Shown here one piece after another: positions 34,861 to 53,677 of a DNA stretch of 64,000 nt. Every line of letters begins with the position of its first letter. Position 1 is the first letter of the stretch. The stretch lies in the NCBI RefSeq assembly GCF_025399195.1, contig NW_026252142.1, positions 1-64,000 on the forward strand, in the 5' to 3' direction. The notes below the pieces were generated by a model, which worked only from the letters and a program-made list of their open reading frames with translations, made no database searches and was not told the DNA's origin. Source of the DNA: Umbelopsis ramanniana AG. Lineage: Eukaryota; Mucoromycota; Umbelopsidomycetes; Umbelopsidales; Umbelopsidaceae. The position numbers and the translations under genes were made by a program.

Positions 34861-35683
34861 AGAGATTGTTTTATGCTTTCCAGGTAATGGATGATGGTGA
34901 TTCTGTCGTTCAATTTGCAGAAATCGAGTGCATTAATCTGATAGACATCTTCGCCCGGATCTGGATACCTTTTGGACCTTCATATATTCATGAACAGGAT
35001 AAGCTCTTAACGTTTCTTTGATGTATTTTGGAATGACGGTTGCTTTGTAGAAAGTGAACAACGTGCCAATGACCCTCACGGCATATATGATTTGTGCTTG
35101 AGTGACTCTGAGATTATGTGCAGCAACGAATATCTCCCCCATGACTTCATTTTCTTTCCAGTGATTGCCGTAAGAAGCGTTCTTCATGGTTTTGTCGTCA
35201 ATAATGATCATCATGTTGGATTCGTAGCTAGACACAACAAAGTCTGGACTCGCAACCACTTTGATTTCATCGCTCTTGACCTTGATCTCATACTTGCGTT
35301 GCGCATTAATATGGAGAGGAAATGAATGGAAGTGCATATTGTATAGCAAGGTATCGACAAAGCCATTGATATATGCTTTGTAAAGACGATTTTTAGCATC
35401 GAAAACATCCTTCACCTCTCTCACTAAAGTCTTTAAGGTGTTGTCAATAGGGAGAGAATGGATATCTATATTTGTTTCCCACATAGTGTCGGGGATACTT
35501 TGCAAATACAGTTCATTTTCATTCTGAATGGATGAGACTTCGAAAATAGATTCTGTGTATATGTCGATGTGCATCAACTCAGTCAAATTCTTTTTCCAAC
35601 TGTACGTCTTGCCCTTCGTCTGAATCATCCGTTGATGAGTGAGAGTCTTCATGGTAGTTCACGGTAATTCTTTTCGTCTTCAT
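34848..35683 (-). pseudogene. PD-(D/E)XK nuclease-like protein, two frameshifts
   Basis: The central frame (35652-34933) shows a nuclease-fold signature: ASPDFVV, then about 15 residues later MIIIDDKT, then NASYGNHWKENEVMGE and IYAVRVIGTLFTFYKAT. An acidic N-terminus beginning MKTKRITVNYHED (ATG at 35683) lies in another frame and stops at about 35580. A plausible C-terminus (INALDFCKLNDRITIIHY) lies in a third frame after about 34985 and ends at 34848. Two frameshifts therefore separate three parts that belong together. The remaining ATG at 35652 could still give a 239-aa product. I associate this type with expanded hypothetical families of Mucoromycota; that is recollection, not a search. 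Confidence 0.65.
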
Positions 35684-42583: not shown

Positions 42584-43232
42584 TTGTCGTATTTAAGCTG
42601 TCGACAAATGCTTTGCTGATCAGGATACGCTCTTCCTGGTAACTTTTACGTCTAGATTCAAAGTGGTAAAGAAGAGCGATTAGATGCTGCGTAATCAGTG
42701 ACCACCATGCTTTACCCACTGCGACATTTTCGCTGGATCAGGTTAGAGGGGGATGAATAGGTATGTGTGTTGAAATGCGTACCCGTTGATACTACTTCAC
42801 CTAGTGGACGCTTTGGTAAAGTGCTGTGAGAGTATCTGCAGTGTTTGTTGCTGAGGTTTTTACCAAACAAGTTCCAAAGATTACAGGCCAATCAGAGCTC
42901 CGGATTTTTCAACATCAGCTCTGCCGTGGCTATCCCGCAACATTTAAAAGACTCTGATAACTGAAAGATGGGAACCTACAAAAGCACTGTGTTGATGTTG
43001 TTCGATGATAATAGCTTGATCGTTGTTATTATTGTTCAGAAAATACGTTTTGACTCATAAGGGCACGCTACGTCCGCGATATAGAATGTGATGATGATAC
43101 AGTATGTATATTAAACACGGCATGAACGACCTTCATGCCTATGGTCATTTCTTTTGAAGCTATTACGTATTTTCTAAGCAGTCTAATAAGTAAATGGAGA
43201 TTTTCAATACGTGCAGTTTGACACCGTTGGCT
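42584..43232. other. PAT1 promoter region / APC4 3' region
   Basis: No gene is seen. The PAT1 upstream region lies next to 42584 and the APC4 3' UTR next to 43232. Palindromic or repeated structure is not evident. Confidence 0.5.
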
Positions 43233-46200
43233 CTAGTCGTCGTTGCCTATCTGTTCGTCATCATCCTCGTCAGCATCATCAGCTTCACCCTCATCCATTT
43301 CCAGAACTAATATTTTTCCACTATCATCCACGACGCTCAGTATTCTGCGGCGCTGTCTACCATTGCTTCCAAGAATGACATTTTCCATGTCTTTTAGTTC
43401 CATGTATCTATTCAGCACAAGGTTCTCCGTAGCGCGCTAGAAGCTGTTAGGTTATGTGTACTGAAATAGGGTGTAAATGGGATGAAAAGCTTACTGTTGC
43501 TGAGGTTGCCCTAACCGTTTCCACATCAACATTGCTGTATTCTATTTCAGGATATGCAACAGTGGCAATGTAGGTCCTTCCTTCTGCTGAGGTATTGTTC
43601 AGACACTTCATCCACGCCACCACACGTAAACGCCTTGTATTCAAACGTACCTGTAGGGTCCACCAGGATCATGCCTAATTCTTGGTCATCAAACATCTCC
43701 ATGTCGGACACAATGACATCCTGAACATCGAAGCGCGCAACCTTGATGTCACCGGCCGTCATTGTTGAGCCTTTGAATTGCATGGCCAAGTTCAGCATAT
43801 ACACTGTACCAAGATATGTCAGAATGAATACATCGGTCAATGAGTTAGACTTCTATCAACTTACATTTTCGCCTGCCTTTCTCCACAATGACAAAGCCAG
43901 CATACTGTTGATGGATAGCACCCTGTAGTAACATCCAGTTAATCACACTATCAACAGCTATACAAGCAACTCATGCCATGCGCTAATTCTGTACCTCTGT
44001 AATGATCCTGACTGTGGTGTTTCGGTTGATGGATCCATACAATGGTGTCTTCCCTTGATGCTCAATTCCTTCATACGGACAGAGAGGGAAACATTTAACG
44101 ACTTTTAAGTGACGCTGTAGACTTTGGGCAGGTGTAGCGAAGATTTCCTCGATGGTTTGATTGAGTTTATCCAAGAATTCAAACAGGCTTGGACGGTGAA
44201 TGTCAGATGGTAGCGACAACGGCAGCTTGAAGCGGAAAGGGTATGCAGGTGGTAGGAAAGGCTGATCACCAAAATTAACGGACGGCAAGAAAGGTTCAAA
44301 CGAAGCTGACTCGTTCATGACAAAGAAGTTGGAAATTCGATCGGATATCAACGAATTCTCCAAAAAGTCGACAATCAGCAACGGACGCGAGCAGGCACTT
44401 CTACCAGTTGAGCCAGGATCCACTACATGTTGCACCACTGGCAGAAAATTTTATCACCTCATTAGCTCGGTTTGCAGTTCTTAACCCACAAATCAAGGTA
44501 TACTCACTATAGCGTGCCCAAGCGATGAACTCTTGAAAACTCTCAGATGTCTTTTTCAATGCCACAATTAACTCTTGATATCTACCATGGAATGCGCCGA
44601 CCAAAGATATCGCCGTACATGTCAGACCTTCGCTCACCAAGTCGTCGTAATTTTCTCTCCTACCATGAGTCGTTAGTACAAATTGAAAGTTATACGTAGT
44701 AGTCTCTCCTGATCATCAACCTACCAACGGCTATAGGCGTTCAGATCATTGAGTAAGCAAAGTAGTCGATCGCAAGCTGGCTGGATATATTCACAGATAA
44801 TGCGCAGCATTGACTGAAAACCAGCATTCGCTTCCTTCTCCCACTTCCTGATTTGCTAAAAGATGTTGCGTGCACTGATAAGTATGAAGATCATGCATCT
44901 TCTTTCATCTCCAGTCATGACGTACCTGTTCCGTGAGAACCTGCTCCAAGTAATAGTGTAATGGTTGACTGGTCATACCAGTGGCAAGCAATCCCAGAAA
45001 TTCCACAATAGGGGTTGCATTGGATTCTTTAACACATCGATGAGCACAACAGAGATCTGCAAGTGGTAACGTGGATTGCACGGCTTACCTTCATGATCCA
45101 ACAAAACCTGCTCAAACTTCTTCAGATTGGACGAAGATAGACCTGCTATTCCTCGATATTGTTTGGCCAAAGCATCATTGCATATTGAAATGTACTTTAA
45201 GCATGCTCGTATATGGAAGCTCTTTTTGGCAATGTTGGCTAGTTGACTGGCTCGTTGGTTCAAAATACTGGTGTCTATAATAACCCAACAAAGAGTTTCA
45301 GCGTCTTGTTCTGCTATCGTTTCCGTAGTTGTGCCTTCTATTCGCGCCTTTGCCATTAAGGACATGCTTTGTAAATCAGACGACACGACGGATTGCAACA
45401 CGACTGCATCCTGAATCGAAACATGGGTTGTAAACTCACTGCCGAAACCCGTCAACTTCCAATCACATTACAATTGCCTACCTGTAGACCATGAGCAAGT
45501 AGTGGGATAGTGCTAGCAAAGTATCGGCCCGAAGCGCTATTATAAATGTTCAGTATGCGCAACTCCAGCTGTATCCTCGTCTTTGATCTTATACCTACCA
45601 AAAGTGTATATTACCCTCACTATCACATATCGTCAGTATATCAATTTGATGGGTCTCATCTGGAAGTTCACTATCCAATTCGCCTTCACTGACGTTTCTT
45701 GCGTCAATTCCAAGCCTGTTAACGATACATGTCAACAAAATTATACCGTGTTACGACTGTGGTTGATACTAGATTCTTACTCTGACGGAGCGGTAATGAG
45801 CGAGCTGATCTCTGGCAATACAAGGTTGGGTGAGAGAACCAAAGGGTCGATGCCGAAGGGCTATAAGGAAAGAGTGAGCATTTCGCGTCGCAGTTATTAT
45901 TCGGAGTAGCAGACACTTGCCAGTTTCTCTTTGGAGGCCACCGAGTCATAGTCATTCCAATTGAGGCTGGTGATAGAAATACCTTGCGAAATGGAGCGCC
46001 AAACGATAGTTGAACTCGGGTAAGGTAGAGCCATGTTGAAAACCCGAACCAAACCAGACTCAAAACCGACCGCCAGCTCCTTTCCTACCACGGGCAAAAG
46101 GTTAGCCAGACGCACTGAGGCTTTGCTGTTTCGTCCGCACTTACCGTCTGGTCGCCATGCCATGGACATGACATCAGCTTCTCCGAGCCAACTCCAGACT

Positions 46201-46373
46201 GTGTGAACACCGTTTCGGCAAATGGACAAAGAGCCGCCTTTGTGAGCTATGGCGAGTAGATCTGCAATGGGACACCAGAGTGTCATGCGAACGTCCGTGT
46301 CGTCTGTCAGCAGCTTTTCTTCATACTGAGGGAATGTAAAAGAAAAGTTTGTCGGTTGGCCACAGTCCAACAT
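43233..46373 (-). CDS. APC4: Anaphase-promoting complex subunit 4
   Basis: Fourteen exons on the minus strand encode 776 aa: 46373-46145, 46084-45921, 45860-45781, 45715-45599, 45536-45482, 45410-45089, 45056-44926, 44855-44725, 44659-44508, 44437-43995, 43922-43865, 43803-43651, 43586-43495, 43436-43233. The N-terminal propeller reads LWCPIADLLAIAHKGGSL then MAWRPDGKELAVGFESGLV. The helical long domain reads ATPIVEFLGLLATGM, IRKWEKEANAGFQSML and PACDRLLCLLNDLNAYSRW. An acidic tail ends the protein. APC4 is a scaffold of the APC/C ubiquitin ligase platform. Intron 2 uses a GC donor (GCAAGT at 45920-45915), forced by reading frame. Confidence 0.88.
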
Positions 46374-46921
46374 GGATTAAACGTAGCTTGATCCAGGTAC
46401 TGAATCTACAACAGTTAAAAGTGGATTCGGGTTGGCAGCCGGCGATGAATTCCAGCTTTGTGACCGCTGCCTTCAGACACCCATATTCTTCGACTAACGC
46501 GATTTTTGATCGAATGATTCGTTCATATATTTGCTGCTCATTAAGGACCATCATAAGATATCCAATTGATAGTTCTAATGGACATACCTTGCATAATTGC
46601 TTTGATATTATATTAATGCGGTGAGCGACGCGCAAATACCTTTGTCTGATTTACTCCAAAAGGAAGAACATGAGTGCTAGTAAGATGGACTATATTTTCT
46701 CATATCGAGTTTCATTGGTATTACAGAGCATTGATATATTTTGTATATAATAATGTGAACGTAGAATAAGTGATAAGATGGAATATTTGGCTTGATGAGA
46801 AATGAAATTTTAGGAAGCTAGCTGTCAAACATTGGCTGTTGGAGGGATTAATTATAAATTATAATAAAACAAAAAAAAAAAAAGCATACCTACACCTCGT
46901 TGGTTATGCTCCTACTACATC
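46374..46921. other. APC4 5' region with overlapping upstream ORF
   Basis: A minus-strand ORF begins with tandem ATGs near 46555 (MMVLNEQQIYERIIRSK). It runs into the APC4 start region in another frame and ends at 46321. It may be an upstream ORF in the APC4 leader. A poly(A) run on the plus strand at about 46869-46881 marks the 3' side of the next gene. Confidence 0.35.
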
Positions 46922-49216
46922 TCAAAAAAAGCTATTACGAGGCTGTATGGCACCAGGATATGCTCCATTAATGATTGCACGTCCTCCATCGATATACCTG
47001 GCAGTCTCATTTCGCTTGATTAATCTGTTTTGGGTGTGCCAAATATCAACATCCTTCACAGTATTGGGCCGAGCATATCTGATTTTGTCCACATCCATAG
47101 ACCACGACGCCTTCCATGATTTGCGAAGTTTTCCAAGCTGGTTCGGTAAAGTAATGAGACTGGTCTTCCTTTGCCAATTTGGAGTGTCGTAATCACACTC
47201 TGTAGCAACGATATATCCAGCAGCTAATAGGACTTTGTTTGTTATAGGCAAGATAATCCTAGTTGCTCCTTCCAGCTTGTAGCCAAGATAACACGCCTGA
47301 TCTGAGCTCAGTAACCTGGTGGCTAGTTCTTTATCATCTCTTAAATAGCGGATAAATCCAGGAAGGCTGATTCCCCACTTTAAAAGCTGTTTGGCATCTA
47401 TTTCGTAAACGACTTTTTCTCCTTTAAAAAATTCCCACCAGGTCATATCTTTTGCCGCAATAGATATGTAGCCATGGAGGATCAACGTCAATACGACACT
47501 AACAAGAGAAGTAAGGGAGGTAGGGTCGATCCCATTGGGTCGTATATAAGCATTGTATGTAATTGCTAATGTCATAGTCAAACATACAGTGGCGAGATAA
47601 AGCAGACATAAAGTCATGTGTAAAAACCGAACGTCTACAATAAATCCGCCGCGTCTTTCTACAATTCGAGAAAACTGATCCCAAGGCCGATAGTCTACGC
47701 TGGGAGCCAGTATGACCATTTGATCATAAATAATAGTCGAAACGTTCGGTAATATAGGTACTTCTAAACCACAAATTGGAATGAGAGTATCACTTCTCAG
47801 TACCGCTCGTTTTAATTGCGAGTGGAAATGTCTGTGAGGTACCCTGATGCGGGCCAAGAAAGCTCGTCCATAAGCATTTGCCATGGCAGATCGCTGCTCC
47901 TTTGTCATCGGATCCGGCTCAAACGGCTTGGTGAATATGTAATACTTTGAATCAAAAGCCACTTTGGTATGCATAATATTGGACTGATCGTCATCTTCCC
48001 AGAATTGAGAAAGATGCAAAAGCGATAGAATTTTTACTTGCGTTAGAGTGTGCGTTGCCATGTAACCCGATACAAGTTTCCAATTCTCGTTTGGATTATG
48101 TATCGTCTGCGTCAACACTTTATGATAAGCTTGAAGCGGTCCTTGCATCTTACATAATTGTAAAATTGTTCGACACACACTGAGCTTGTGGACGATTTGC
48201 TGGCATTGTTCTAGTCGTACTACAGATGTATCGACAAACCACGCATCAAATGTACTGCTGTGCCTCTGATTGTGACATGTGAAACACAAGCTTCGTACGA
48301 TTTCCTCTACACAATGTTTGATGGCCATGACTCTCTCGCTATTGATTCTGTCAGACATCTTGACAGTCGAAGTTGAGAACTTGAGGCTCTGCACCATGTA
48401 GCCCAGGCGACAGAGGCTAATAACGTTCAAACAGCATGAAATTTGACGTAAAACTTGTCGTGCTTCCGCAGTTTCGTATACTTCCAAGCTAATAGCCATT
48501 TCTATGACTTCCCGAATGACATCCTTCAACTTTCCAGAAGGTTTGATCCATGCAAAACCACTAGTGGTATCAAATATCTGCTTGGTAATTTCCATGTCGC
48601 TGTTCAATATCCGCTGACCTAGATCGTCCCACGCTCTCATTTTGTCACCGTTTCTGTTGCGTGATCGAAAACCGTTGCTGTAGTAACTCGTTTTCCACAT
48701 TCTGTATTTTAAAAGTATAAATTGAATCCCAACGAAAATGACTTGCGATATGTATAACCGTGTTAGTGACCACTGTTGCCTAATATATGTGGTTTGTTCG
48801 TTCACATAATCTTGCGACATGAAAAAGCCAGAGGGAGCAGTTAACGAAATGCTTTGGAATGTTCTGATGTTCGACGAAAAAGTGCTGGTGTTGCCTATAT
48901 CAAGGCTCGTATTGCTGTCGACAAGAGTAAAGCTATCACTAAAGGAACTATGGTGGCTGCGAGGAAGATCTTCCAGTGGCATGGTGATTGAATGTGTAGT
49001 TCTGTATTTGATAACAAACTCGTTTTTTAGCTCTTGCCAATTGGAATGATCTCTAAGCAATAGCCAATCGCGGACTTTGTCTGTAACCCTGGAGTAAAAA
49101 GCAATTTCCTTTTGTCGATCACTCCATTTCTTCAGTGTAGCTTGCCTCTCTATGCCCTGAATCCATATATCCGGATCTTGATTTTCAGAATAGGGTGGAA
49201 TTTGTTCACACTCCAT
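46922..49216 (-). CDS. Gag-like N-terminus fused to a three-helix membrane protein
   Basis: One uninterrupted exon encodes 764 aa. Residues 8-72 resemble the capsid-like Retrotrans_gag domain of Ty3/gypsy elements: PPYSENQDPDIWIQGIER, WSDRQKEIAFYSR, VRDWLLL and NWQELKNEFVIKY. A Ser/Thr-rich linker follows. A hydrophobic helix lies at about 151-170 (LYISQVIFVGIQFILL). A 350-residue soluble region with many Cys and His follows, then two helices at about 531-553 and 568-588 and a 175-residue C-terminal part. I do not recognise the non-Gag portion. No protease, reverse transcriptase, integrase or LTR was seen nearby. The intact long ORF suggests selection and host use; both are inference. Confidence 0.7.
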   Translation of the reverse strand: MECEQIPPYSENQDPDIWIQGIERQATLKKWSDRQKEIAFYSRVTDKVRDWLLLRDHSNWQELKNEFVIKYRTTHSITMPLEDLPRSHHSSFSDSFTLVDSNTSLDIGNTSTFSSNIRTFQSISLTAPSGFFMSQDYVNEQTTYIRQQWSLTRLYISQVIFVGIQFILLKYRMWKTSYYSNGFRSRNRNGDKMRAWDDLGQRILNSDMEITKQIFDTTSGFAWIKPSGKLKDVIREVIEMAISLEVYETAEARQVLRQISCCLNVISLCRLGYMVQSLKFSTSTVKMSDRINSERVMAIKHCVEEIVRSLCFTCHNQRHSSTFDAWFVDTSVVRLEQCQQIVHKLSVCRTILQLCKMQGPLQAYHKVLTQTIHNPNENWKLVSGYMATHTLTQVKILSLLHLSQFWEDDDQSNIMHTKVAFDSKYYIFTKPFEPDPMTKEQRSAMANAYGRAFLARIRVPHRHFHSQLKRAVLRSDTLIPICGLEVPILPNVSTIIYDQMVILAPSVDYRPWDQFSRIVERRGGFIVDVRFLHMTLCLLYLATVCLTMTLAITYNAYIRPNGIDPTSLTSLVSVVLTLILHGYISIAAKDMTWWEFFKGEKVVYEIDAKQLLKWGISLPGFIRYLRDDKELATRLLSSDQACYLGYKLEGATRIILPITNKVLLAAGYIVATECDYDTPNWQRKTSLITLPNQLGKLRKSWKASWSMDVDKIRYARPNTVKDVDIWHTQNRLIKRNETARYIDGGRAIINGAYPGAIQPRNSFF

Positions 49217-51082
49217 GGCGTTGTGTTGTCCAGTGGTAGAATGGAGGTTAATTGACGTTATGATAGTAGTGCTAGTTCGATTGTTTCCAATTGTAACAAC
49301 GTGGATGTTCAGATTGTTTGGGTAGTGTAATAGGAATGGGGGTTTCCACAAAGCAGAATAAGGACGCTTAATTTATCTTCCACACCTCGATAGCTTTGGT
49401 GGTTCCGGTATGAAAGAGAGAGATCAGAATCATGGGCGCAGCATTTGTTGTATATCCGCCTTGTTGTGTCACATGCGGTGTATCTGTGACAGAAGTTTCC
49501 ATTCAACAGCTCAAAGGGAATACGAGAGTGGACAGGCAGCAAAGCCGAAAGTTTATCTGTATTCAAAGATAGTGATTTGATTCAAATATTGATAAATTCC
49601 CCTTTCCTTCATGTCGCATATTAAATGTATGGTTGTTGCCATAACAAAGCGAGAGACCTGTTGCTTTGTAAGGCAACGCGGTTTGGCATCCAAGCCAAAA
49701 TGTCCGCCATAAATCCCAAATGTTTGACAACCATCATGACCTACCAATATGTCTTCCAACATAAAGCGCTGGCATGCGTGAACCATTCGCTATCATCCAC
49801 CGAGACATAGGGAATGCGCAGGCGCTTCCTATAACATGATTAAATGTTTATTGTTGCAATTGGTTCTATAAAAGGTAAATAATGGTATATGTAGGATCAG
49901 TTCGGTTGGCATTACATCTCTTCTTGCCTGCGTTGATCGAGCTATACGGACTTGGGGTCTGCACCTTTAAAAATTTATTAAAGGATAGTCAACTGTCTAT
50001 AACAAAAATTACGTTGGTCGGTTAAGCCAGTCCCAAATCAATTGTGGCATAAGTCAGTTGGGTTACGCACTCACATGACCTGTGACGATTGTGGTAGCCA
50101 CAACAAAACGAACAACACATTACAATTCCTGTGAACGGCCGAATACTACTTTCGAAAGTCACATTAAATCATGCCATTTGGTTCCTTTTCAGTTCTAGAA
50201 TATCGATGTATTCCAGAACGAACTTGGAAGATGTAAGCTTTTTATCATCGCGGCGAAAAAGCTGGCTGCTGGGCAGAGACCAGGCGTACTATTTTTCAGG
50301 AAGAAACACAGTATGATATTTGAGCTTCTACCGTAATACCTATGTCCAGTGTAAATGCACGACAATGAGACGTGTAGCTGCTGGCATGTTCGATAGGTAG
50401 TATCTTTGCTCACGGACGGTTGCCATGCCTCCTATTTTGCTCATTTGGTAACAATCCGATTGCGGAATCTGAAGTGGTTGGAGAAGGGCCGTGTCTGTTT
50501 GTATCGACGACGTAAATGGTATGCCGAACACTCTGCGGAATACCAGGCTAGTAAAACGCAATATACATCATGATGTTCGGGCCTGGCTACTACTGAACTT
50601 GAACAAGTTGCATAGCGGCTTGAGTGCAAAGTAATGGAAGTACAAATGATACCCATATCGTCGACTACGGGAATGTATAACGAATTGACTTCTTGAAGGA
50701 CTGCCTCTGAAGTTTACTTCACAAATATCAGATTCCTCTCCCAAATGAAAATTTGATACCAGTGTCAGTCCATCTACTGGCCTCGAATGGGCAACCACTT
50801 CCTCCGAACTGAACAATGTTAAGATGGAGCACTAGTGATGATGCCCGAATGATTACAATCCATATGGTGTACAGTTGCTTTTATCTTTGCTATCGCCAGG
50901 GTATCTAACCCGTTTACTAGTGTGCTTAAGGCTAATCTGCTTACAGAACAGCACATAATGTTTCAATGCAAACTACAACGAATGCTAAATCTGTAGGATG
51001 TTATTTTATTTTCAGCGTTAATGAGCCAGCACCTTTACACTTGCGTTTCTCATGTATGCACTGTTTCCCTTCTATTACATTT
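49217..51082. other. 1.9-kb region without a supported gene
   Basis: Many ORFs of 60-85 codons occur on the minus strand (49309-49566, 49553-49786, 50340-50561, 50568-50816), with none recognisable. It is a possible upstream leader of the Gag-like gene plus decayed sequence. I saw no LTR pair. Confidence 0.45.
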
Positions 51083-52824
51083 TTACAATTTGGCCTTGGG
51101 AGAGTTTTTCTGCTTGTTGGCAGCTTCGCTCATCTTGACTCGAGACACCTTGCCAGTAGCAGTCTTCTGCATTTCCTTAACAACATAAATTCGCTTGGGG
51201 ATTTTGAATTTAGCCAGCTTAGCAGATGCGAACTCTTGCATCTCCTTTTCGATTTTCTTGGGATCTTCATTCTCATTGGCTTTCTTGAGAACAACCGCAG
51301 CATGGACTTCTTGTCCATACATTTCGTCGTCGACACCAAAACAGATGGCCTCAGCTGCCTTGGGGAAGGCAAGCAAGACACCATCGATTTCCAAGGGAGA
51401 GATCTTTTCTCCTCCGCGGTTGATGAGCTCCTTAATGCGTCCGGTCAAAATAAGGTATCCGTCTTTGTCCTTCTTTCCTTGATCACCAGTGCGGAACCAA
51501 CCATCAGCAGTAAAAGAACTCTGGTTGGCCTGAGGGTTGTTGAGATAACCCTTGGTCACATTGGCTCCCTTAATGCACACTTCACCTTCCGCAACATGCT
51601 TGCCATTGCTATCCAAAATAGCAATCTCAACACCTTGGCCAAGACCAACGGAGCCAGGCTTATGGGCGGCAGGAGGGAGGGGGTTGGAAGTCATTTGATG
51701 GGCAGCTTCAGTCATGGCATAGGCTTCCAAAACGGGGGCCTTGAAGGTTTCTTCCAAGGCATGGAATGTGGGAGGGGCCAAACTAGAGGAGCATGATCGG
51801 ATAAATCGAATGTTGGGGATTTCCTTGGGAGGATGGAGCAAAAGGATTTGATGCATAGTGGGGACTAGAATTTCATAGAAGAAAAAAAAACCATGGTTAA
51901 ACTTGATTGCTCCATGCTACGCCGATGATTCGAAAAAATGAAGGGCTTACCAGCTGTGTACCAGTTACACTTGTTTTCAATAAAGTCCTTCCAGAAGACA
52001 CCAGCCGAGAACTTTTGAGGAACGACTGCACTTCCACCCGATAACAACGTAGCAAGCAAACCACAAATCAAGCCATGAACGTGGAACAATGGCATGACCA
52101 AATAGGTACGATCTGCAGGCGTAAGCTTATATGTGTTGATGATGTTCTGCATGGTGGTAGCAATGTTCAGATGGGTGAGAGGCACACCTGCAAGCAAAGG
52201 TAGAATTAGCCCGAAAGTCCTTCAATCCTACTATACCATTCCATTCCATGCCATGCTCTCTCACTTACCCTTGGGTCGGCCAGTTGTGCCGCTGGTGTGT
52301 AGCAAAAGAGCCACATCGTCGGGTTGTGGGCGGACTTTACTAGGGTTGAATCCTCCTTTGGATTTATCCTTTCCAGGCACGGTCAGCTCGACTTGGATCT
52401 GATTGTTAGCCCACTCGATCTCTACGACAGCAACTCCAAAAGACTTTGCAGCCCGAACAACGGGGCTGTTGCTTTGAGTTGAACCCTTCGGAACAATGAT
52501 AGCGTGAGACTGAGAATCTTCAAGATAAAACTTGAATTCATCTTCGGTGTAAGCGGCATTGAGGGGAGCAGAGACCAATCTCATGTATCCAGTAGCCAAG
52601 AAAGCAATAATGAACTCGAGTGAGTTTGGATAAGCAATGGAAATAGCATGGCCAGGCTTGAAAGTGGAAGCAGGAAGTACGGCGGCAAGTTTTCCCGAGA
52701 AATCCGCAATGACTTGCAGTAATTGTTTGAATGTAAGGTGGACGGGGGTGGGAGCTGACGAAGGGATTATGACAGCTGTGTTGTTGTTGTTGTTACGCTC
52801 GAATACGGAGAAGAGAGTCGACAT
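51083..52824 (-). CDS. PCS60: Peroxisomal acyl/oxalyl-CoA synthetase (Pcs60-like)
   Basis: Three exons on the minus strand (52824-52269, 52187-51951, 51864-51083) encode 524 aa. The ANL-superfamily adenylation motif LLLHTSGTTGRPKG lies near residue 180. Further motifs are VMPLFHVHGL, YAMTEAAHQM, GWFRTGDQG, GRIKELINRGGEKISP and the catalytic Lys region KTATGKVSR. The protein ends AKL, a type 1 peroxisomal targeting signal. Length and motif spacing match Pcs60/AAE3 enzymes, which activate oxalate in yeast and plants. Substrate identity here is an inference. Intron 1 splits the GRPKG motif. Confidence 0.92.
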
Positions 52825-53677
52825 TGGAGGAGATGAAAGGGTAATGTTGAAAGGATTAACGGCTGGTTTTTATATAAGTTCTCATTGTGCCGGCGAAATC
52901 GATGAGGATCAACAGTCACGCAATGCAGATTTGCTCACACAAGCGATTGTGTCATTTTGCGTGCTCAGCACAAAATCACATAATTTGTGCGCGCTGCCTT
53001 TGCCATACCGCCCAAATCGCTTGTCCAAGCCAGGCCAAGCCAAGCGCGCAATCACTCTGCCTATCCATCTAAAATTCTGCGGTGTACACCGATGCCTTTT
53101 GAAAAGGATGCACTGGAACAAATATTTGCCTAAATAATTTTTACGTCGTGTTGGCGCAGTGTTTCATTTATGGAAGAAAGTAACCGTCTCGTAATACTGC
53201 CGGATGGAAATGTAAAGTGCCGGCAGAAGGACAATGTACATTTAAAATCAATCAAGCGTATGTTCATGGTTGTTGACGTCTTATCGCACAGTCCACTATC
53301 TCTGTGCTGACAATGCTTGCCTAATTTTGTCGGCAAGCAGTGCCTAAAAACGTGGTTGACGTATCCCTGCAGCTGCCATTCGGAAGAAATAAACTTACTC
53401 CGGGGTGGAACTTGGCTGACCAGGTCAACTCAGCCCGGCTTTATATTAAGATTACAGAGAGTGACACAGCGGTCTGTTTTATTCAATTAACATTGCGTGC
53501 AAATATGAACAATACAAGGTGAGGAGAGGTGTCTAGGAGGAGACAACTCAACCGTAAGATAGAGGATAGAAAAGATTCGGGGTGAGGAGATTATGGGGAC
53601 AAATAAGAAAAAAAAGGGAAATCGCAACAATTTAAACGTGACATGTACATGGTGGAGATAAGCAGGTGAAAAAACTT
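52825..53677. other. Intergenic region between PCS60 and the second Zn2Cys6 gene
   Basis: The PCS60 promoter lies next to 52825. The 3' UTR of the Zn2Cys6 gene precedes 53678. ORFs such as 52637-53137 (+) are antisense or unsupported. Confidence 0.5.

Follow-up and report, generated by a model that had tools for sequence, protein, structure and literature searches.

A Ty3/gypsy-type Gag capsid lobe, assigned by profile comparison and modelled fold, heads a probable membrane protein of Umbelopsis ramanniana AG

The window analyzed here comprises the first 64,000 nucleotides of contig NW_026252142.1 of Umbelopsis ramanniana AG (contig C56, 167,670 bases, in an assembly of 22.8 Mb). On its minus strand, positions 46922..49216 hold a single-exon open reading frame (ORF) of 764 codons, which runs from an ATG at 49216 to a TGA at 46922-46924 and, as stated in the initial annotation, contains no internal stop. 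The frame stays open for another 52 codons upstream, up to position 49372, and since no ATG occurs in this part, residue 1 corresponds to the first in-frame ATG. The gene occurs only once in its genome. Its N terminus is of Gag type, whereas the remaining residues, about 630 of them, belong to a dispersed Umbelopsis family of probable membrane proteins, at whose other members the Gag-type lobe was not found.

A search of 5.8 billion proteins yielded four proteins including the one studied here, identities being given over the aligned parts. P0002 (a JGI record, 766 residues) is 77% identical along its whole length and represents the full-length ortholog hoped for in the initial annotation, while P0003 from Umbelopsis sp. 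AD052 (633 residues, 84%) and P0004 from Umbelopsis sp. PMI_123 (526 residues, 50%) are partial models. The P0003 model starts only at the position corresponding to residue 133, and the P0004 model diverges after residue 521; this shortening, at the start in the one case and at the end in the other, may reflect annotation errors or true losses. The lobe is carried by three of the four models, the target included. A search with the lobe alone against the large protein set returned only the target and P0002 and missed the lobe-bearing P0004, which indicates a low sensitivity.

According to profile comparison and modelled fold, residues 1-75 (48992..49216, minus strand as all features of this gene) are a Ty3/gypsy-type Gag capsid N-terminal lobe with helices at residues 15-29, 33-43, 46-54, and 60-74, which bears out their earlier description as Gag-like. 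Apart from the gene itself, a genome search with residues 1-80 reached two places only, C6 (25% identity, E 0.001) and C95 (21%, E 0.02). Both places overlap with matches of the Retrotrans_gag model, of which the genome contains six, none on the contig of the target and three with internal stops; here, the match at C6 lies above and the one at C95 below the curated cut-off. When the open frames of the two loci were compared with Ty3_capsid, C95 gave an E of 2e-6 (27.7 bits, below the cut-off of 29.1) and C6 an E of 0.002, also below the cut-off. With Retrotrans_gag, both frames yielded sub-threshold matches with an E of 0.003. By eye, a CCHC-like knuckle frame follows the Gag of C95, and an integrase-like frame precedes the one of C6. 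The reverse search using the C95 Gag recovered C95, C6, two pieces at C29, and the target (E 0.014), the match to the target being confined to Gag residues 8-95. At C29, a reverse transcriptase match that appears Ty3/gypsy-like by eye is situated 1.2 kb from the Gag pieces, with a piece of a reverse transcriptase resembling those of long interspersed nuclear elements in between, so that the link from Gag to pol at this locus is suggestive rather than clean.

In a profile-profile comparison, the lobe aligned with the Gags of C6 and C95 over 70 columns with a probability of 93-94 (93.7, score 41.8). Shuffling the columns of the lobe 200 times gave scores of at most 23.6; the reversed lobe scored 9.6 against the Gag profile, and 21 other windows of the ortholog alignment (columns 81-560) scored at most 12.9. 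The shuffle control omitted the third row of alignment A6 (an L007 piece), the score being 40.6 with this row and 41.8 without it. Against the C95 Gag alone, the lobe gave a probability of 72 and a score of 29.7. The alignment of lobe and Gags starts at the first methionine of the target, opposite a methionine in both Gags. If the latter are the Gag start codons, as we read them, this fits a captured gag sequence that begins right at the start of its gene.

Modelled on its own, the lobe adopts a four-helix fold with a mean predicted local distance difference test (pLDDT) value of 79.8. Among the matches listed for this model, capsid domains accounted for 46 of 50 in Foldseek and for 50 of 50 in VIA. 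The comparison with capsid structures proposed in the initial annotation thus supports its assignment, the PDB matches of the modelled lobe being mostly capsid domains. In the model of the full-length protein, residues 73-764 have pLDDT values below 50, for which reason no claim on the fold of the entire protein is upheld. Of the 50 Foldseek matches considered for this model (out of 74), nine were capsid or Arc domains with a probability of 0.44-0.91, and the other 41 reached at most 0.08.

To what extent a complete capsid protein is present was examined with 31 windows covering the remainder of the protein (residue 76 onward), which matched the second-lobe part of the C95 Gag with a probability of at most 2.6; in the same test, the first-lobe part of this Gag gave a probability of 72. 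The 21-window control mentioned above says nothing on the second lobe, as its Gag profile hardly extends past the first one. As no second lobe was found and the C95 Gag matches the target over its residues 8-95 only, the idea of a capsid-forming protein, also raised in the initial annotation, was rejected. For the same lack of a second lobe, self-assembly into capsids as in Arc appears unlikely.

The lobe is followed by a poorly kept linker (residues 76-135, 48812..48991; 23% identity to P0004 and 50% to P0002), which shows no structure in a model of low confidence, and by a hydrophobic helix at residues 151-169 (48710..48766). With a mean hydropathy of 1.71 and a rough insertion score of about +2.8, this helix would be a marginal membrane span at best. 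The core (residues 176-533, 47618..48691; pLDDT below 50) contains no known domain according to searches in Pfam, NCBIfam, and PHROGs, which produced only weak stray matches; those to an NgoFVII nuclease (E 0.032) and to phrog_32880 (E 0.021) were not accepted. Its earlier characterization as Cys/His-rich holds only weakly: cysteine and histidine make up 2.0% and 2.5% of the protein, and nine cysteine or histidine residues of columns 176-520 are invariant in the four models. Two predicted membrane helices at residues 534-552 (47561..47617) and 570-588 (47453..47509), both with a counterpart in five of five paralogs, form the arms of a putative hairpin, with the family motif GIDPTSLTSLV (residues 562-572, 47501..47533) at its turn. 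Of the helices predicted initially, these two are confirmed as hydrophobic helices, while the one near residue 160 is no confident membrane span according to the insertion score, a rough, home-made measure. The C-terminal tail (residues 589-764, 46925..47452) is, together with the hairpin, the best-kept part of the protein in comparison with P0002 and P0003: residues 522-764 are 87% and 89% identical to them, respectively. A match to CFTR at residues 649-751 (E 0.025) was dismissed as chance.

Genome searches assigned the non-lobe residues to a family of six Umbelopsis genes, each encoded in a single frame: C1, C21, C25, C26, C108, and the target. Their positions, given in an order other than that of these names, are L025:3837-5684, L026:4356-6179, L027:3742-5637, L028:3446-5566, L029:4202-6283, and window positions 46922-49216; all six have the C-terminal hairpin in common, differ strongly in their N-terminal parts, and contain no recognized domain. 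C26 and C108 are linked to the family only weakly, with E values of 0.0004 to 0.013 and matches restricted to C1 and C21. The family is characterized by two hydrophobic helices near the C terminus and their D-x-T-S turn, which reads DPTS in four of the six members, and in five of six an [ST]-W-[YWF] stretch follows the second helix, C25 being different. The target shows the two-helix hairpin, the D-x-T-S turn, and sequence similarity to the other members. Two further relatives of the paralogs, P0006 and P0007, were identified. Because the last family search was limited to candidates that had most words in common and missed all four orthologs, it provides no measure of the range of the family outside Umbelopsis. 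Neither the target nor the family had a relative among the viral contigs searched. Beside the C26 paralog, two open frames, L029:3-1067 (355 codons) and L029:1306-2358 (351 codons), have no Pfam match; the first of them appears GIY-YIG nuclease-like by eye.

All frames of at least 40 codons in the 9.5-9.9 kb around each of the five paralogs were searched with the lobe profile, with a best E of 0.6. Nothing better than this value was obtained for P0005, P0006, and P0007 either. The same profile gives an E of 5e-43 for the target, which is, however, itself part of the profile.

Judging from the sequences, the hairpin is the only element in all six genes that makes a convincing predicted membrane segment. 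In the target, the flank before it is basic (four lysine/arginine and two aspartate/glutamate residues), the flank behind it is mixed (three and four), and its turn is poor in charge; by the positive-inside rule, this weakly favors a cytosolic location of core and tail. Helix 151-169, which is followed by five lysine/arginine residues and has a poor rough insertion score, is taken here as non-spanning.

The degree of conservation differs along the protein. Between the target and P0004, the most distant ortholog, 51 of 75 lobe residues (68%), 14 of 60 linker residues (23%), and 195 of 385 core residues (51%) are identical (p = 0.008 for lobe versus core, p = 3e-7 for lobe versus linker), and none of 311 core windows of 75 residues reaches 51 identities. 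Positions invariant in the three lobe sequences amount to 8/15, 8/11, 7/9, and 10/15 in helices 1 to 4. Twenty-six polar positions are invariant in the three orthologs, with 14 of them in helices 2-4, which suggests that a surface has been preserved in addition to the fold. Helices 2-4 are also the ones named in the lobe-lobe model of RTL8 and PEG10 (PMC11684626). These figures describe conservation on the protein level and are no substitute for a ratio of nonsynonymous to synonymous substitutions.

The surroundings of the gene do not resemble a retroelement. Within 43000-53500, no direct or inverted repeats of at least 30 bases were found, a search that could miss diverged or solo long terminal repeats (LTRs). 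A neighbor encoded on the same strand (45900-46373) contains an anaphase-promoting-complex subunit 4 WD40 domain. A genome search with RVT_1 gave 28 matches, 11 with internal stops and none on the contig of the target. As to the stop-riddled element remnants that the initial annotation mentions in the window, neither RVT_1 nor Retrotrans_gag matched anything on this contig. The features of an active LTR retrotransposon, namely LTRs, a nearby reverse transcriptase, and several copies, were therefore not observed, and a retrotransposon gene was rejected on these grounds. The refuting case named in the initial annotation, an ORF found only beside LTRs as part of an active retroelement, thus did not apply; what lies here, outside any recognizable element, is an intact, gag-derived ORF kept between species. 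The retroelement set of the genome is small and partly decayed, with at least 28 reverse transcriptase and at least 6 Retrotrans_gag matches in 22.8 Mb. A six-frame search for possible Gag partners in the possibly incomplete assembly revealed only distant, incomplete-looking Gag loci: C6 contains an internal stop, the C29 pieces lie in two frames, and C95 has an open Gag frame of 227 codons with no RVT_1 match on its contig. Elsewhere in the window, an orphan minus-strand frame of 241 codons (34936-35658) appears nuclease-like by eye; its sole Pfam match, to DUF927 (E 0.06), falls short of the threshold.

Taken together, the explanation we lean towards, if by no wide measure of confidence, is that of an exapted (domesticated) gene whose membrane-anchored product uses a half-capsid for protein interactions in the cytosol. 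Since the fusion joint recurs in the relatives and the capsid piece is well preserved there, this piece has probably acquired a use in the host. The two-helix hairpin would anchor the product, leaving core and capsid lobe in the cytosol, where the lobe would most likely act as a compact interaction module via lobe-lobe or peptide-binding surfaces of the capsid N-lobe type. By binding itself or a partner, it may cluster the protein or recruit that partner at the membrane. With respect to the initial annotation, the intact fusion of a Gag domain to a probable membrane protein, lying outside any recognizable element and having orthologs, is supported, while capsid formation is not.

Several observations weigh against this explanation. 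No curated Pfam model recognizes a Gag, either in residues 1-89 or in the entire protein. The P0003 model lacks the lobe, for which real loss and short annotation are both conceivable. In comparison with P0002, the lobe (77%) is no better kept than the core (75%), the picture is weaker between P0002 and P0004 (48/75 for the lobe versus 203/385 for the core, p = 0.08), and the best core window has 50 identities to P0004 versus 51 for the lobe. If helix 151-169 did span the membrane, the lobe would be placed on the opposite side from the core, which argues against contact with cytosolic Gag.

The lobe could alternatively bind the N-lobes of Gag proteins and either hold them at the membrane or spoil particle assembly, making the protein a membrane-tethered restriction factor, in the sense of the anti-retroelement role considered in the initial annotation. 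By analogy with RTL8 acting on PEG10 and with truncated Ty1 Gag, each like the target a partial capsid protein, and with the yeast precedent DRT2, such a role would be based on the same physics as an interaction module, and only few related Gag loci were found, although such a scarcity of elements could have arisen for other reasons. Nevertheless, with identities of only 25% and 21%, the lobe is far from the C6 and C95 Gags for co-assembly, it is conserved rather than fast-changing, and the incomplete appearance of the resident related Gags argues mildly in the same direction. We therefore regard restriction as rather unlikely. A similarly low probability is assigned to an anchored capsid receptor or trap, in which the lobe would sense or cluster capsid-type surfaces, of retroelements or others, and the anchored orphan core would act on the result.

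That the lobe is a mere passenger, translated and folded without a selected role while the function resides wholly in the family core, would be in line with its absence from the searched loci of all five paralogs, with a P0003 model that manages without it, and with its conservation relative to P0002; the contrast of 68% identity in the lobe to 23% in the adjoining linker towards the most distant ortholog makes this quite improbable. An unrelated small helical domain that came to resemble a capsid by convergence might explain why the target matches neither Retrotrans_gag nor Ty3_capsid, so that the assignment stands on profile comparison and modelled fold, and why the lobe lacks a sequence match in the PDB; moreover, small helical bundles readily give middling fold scores. 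Given the profile match to Gag with its collinear start, unequaled by any of the 200 shuffles, and fold matches that are, among those listed, nearly all capsids, convergence is very unlikely. Least credible of all is an unusual gag-membrane gene belonging to a retroelement, for which the Gag-derived N terminus could be cited, in view of the single copy, the lack of detectable flanking repeats of at least 30 bp, the location of all 28 reverse transcriptase matches on other contigs, and the membership of the remaining protein in a dispersed family without a detected lobe.

The preferred reading of a half-capsid interaction module can be compared with other cases of capsid reuse. SCAN domains serve as interaction modules on zinc-finger proteins. 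According to a reference title, the SCAN domain is a homolog of the capsid C-terminal domain, whereas the target carries the N-terminal lobe. Domesticated gag genes and half-capsids as such are already known (PMC11011659): RTL8 and other mammalian "half-CA" genes combine, like the target, an N-lobe fold with unrelated adjoining sequence (PMC11011659). RTL8, which is similar to the N-terminal capsid domain, binds the N-lobe of PEG10 in a mode similar to the lobe-lobe contacts in capsids and lowers particle abundance (PMC11684626). It is a truncated Gag that acts as a regulator of PEG10 (PMC11684626). In the target, the lobe is instead fused to some 630 residues belonging to a host family, and no full-length partner was identified among the Gag loci found. 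Arc possesses both lobes and forms capsid-like structures (PMC6525542), in contrast to the single lobe found here on a membrane hairpin protein, and peptide complexes of the Arc N-lobe, known from structure titles, provide a precedent for an N-lobe as binding module.

Domesticated capsid genes are best known from mammals, and the fungal case met in these sources is a yeast Ty1' relic (PMC10951436). There, DRT2 of Saccharomyces cerevisiae is, like the target, a domesticated gag piece in a fungus; it restricts Ty1', whereas p22 is a shortened form of Ty1 Gag (PMC10951436). The DRT2 sequence forms an intact part of a Ty1' gag relic and spans the C-terminal capsid domain (PMC10951436); the target has a fused Ty3/gypsy-type N-terminal lobe. 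For the domesticated gag gene Gagr of Drosophila, the product is said to be evolving towards a transmembrane domain (PMC7231272). In that case the gag product itself gained a segment, while in the target a gag piece was joined to a separate family. A further paper (PMC10085805) deals, in the part available, with transposases and not with gag. Among the matches listed in the open-access literature, with subscription papers mostly outside this scope, no report was found of an early-diverging fungus with a half-capsid fused to an unrelated, dispersed family, and an anchored capsid receptor or trap would, if true, be an architecture not described for domesticated Gags in the parts of the literature examined. 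Two named strains of Umbelopsis and a further record carry the lobe fusion, which offers a simple fungus for asking whether a lone N-lobe acts as interaction module or as restriction factor. Compared with the systems above, a half-capsid on an unrelated, probable membrane family would represent another route of capsid reuse, namely as an add-on domain.
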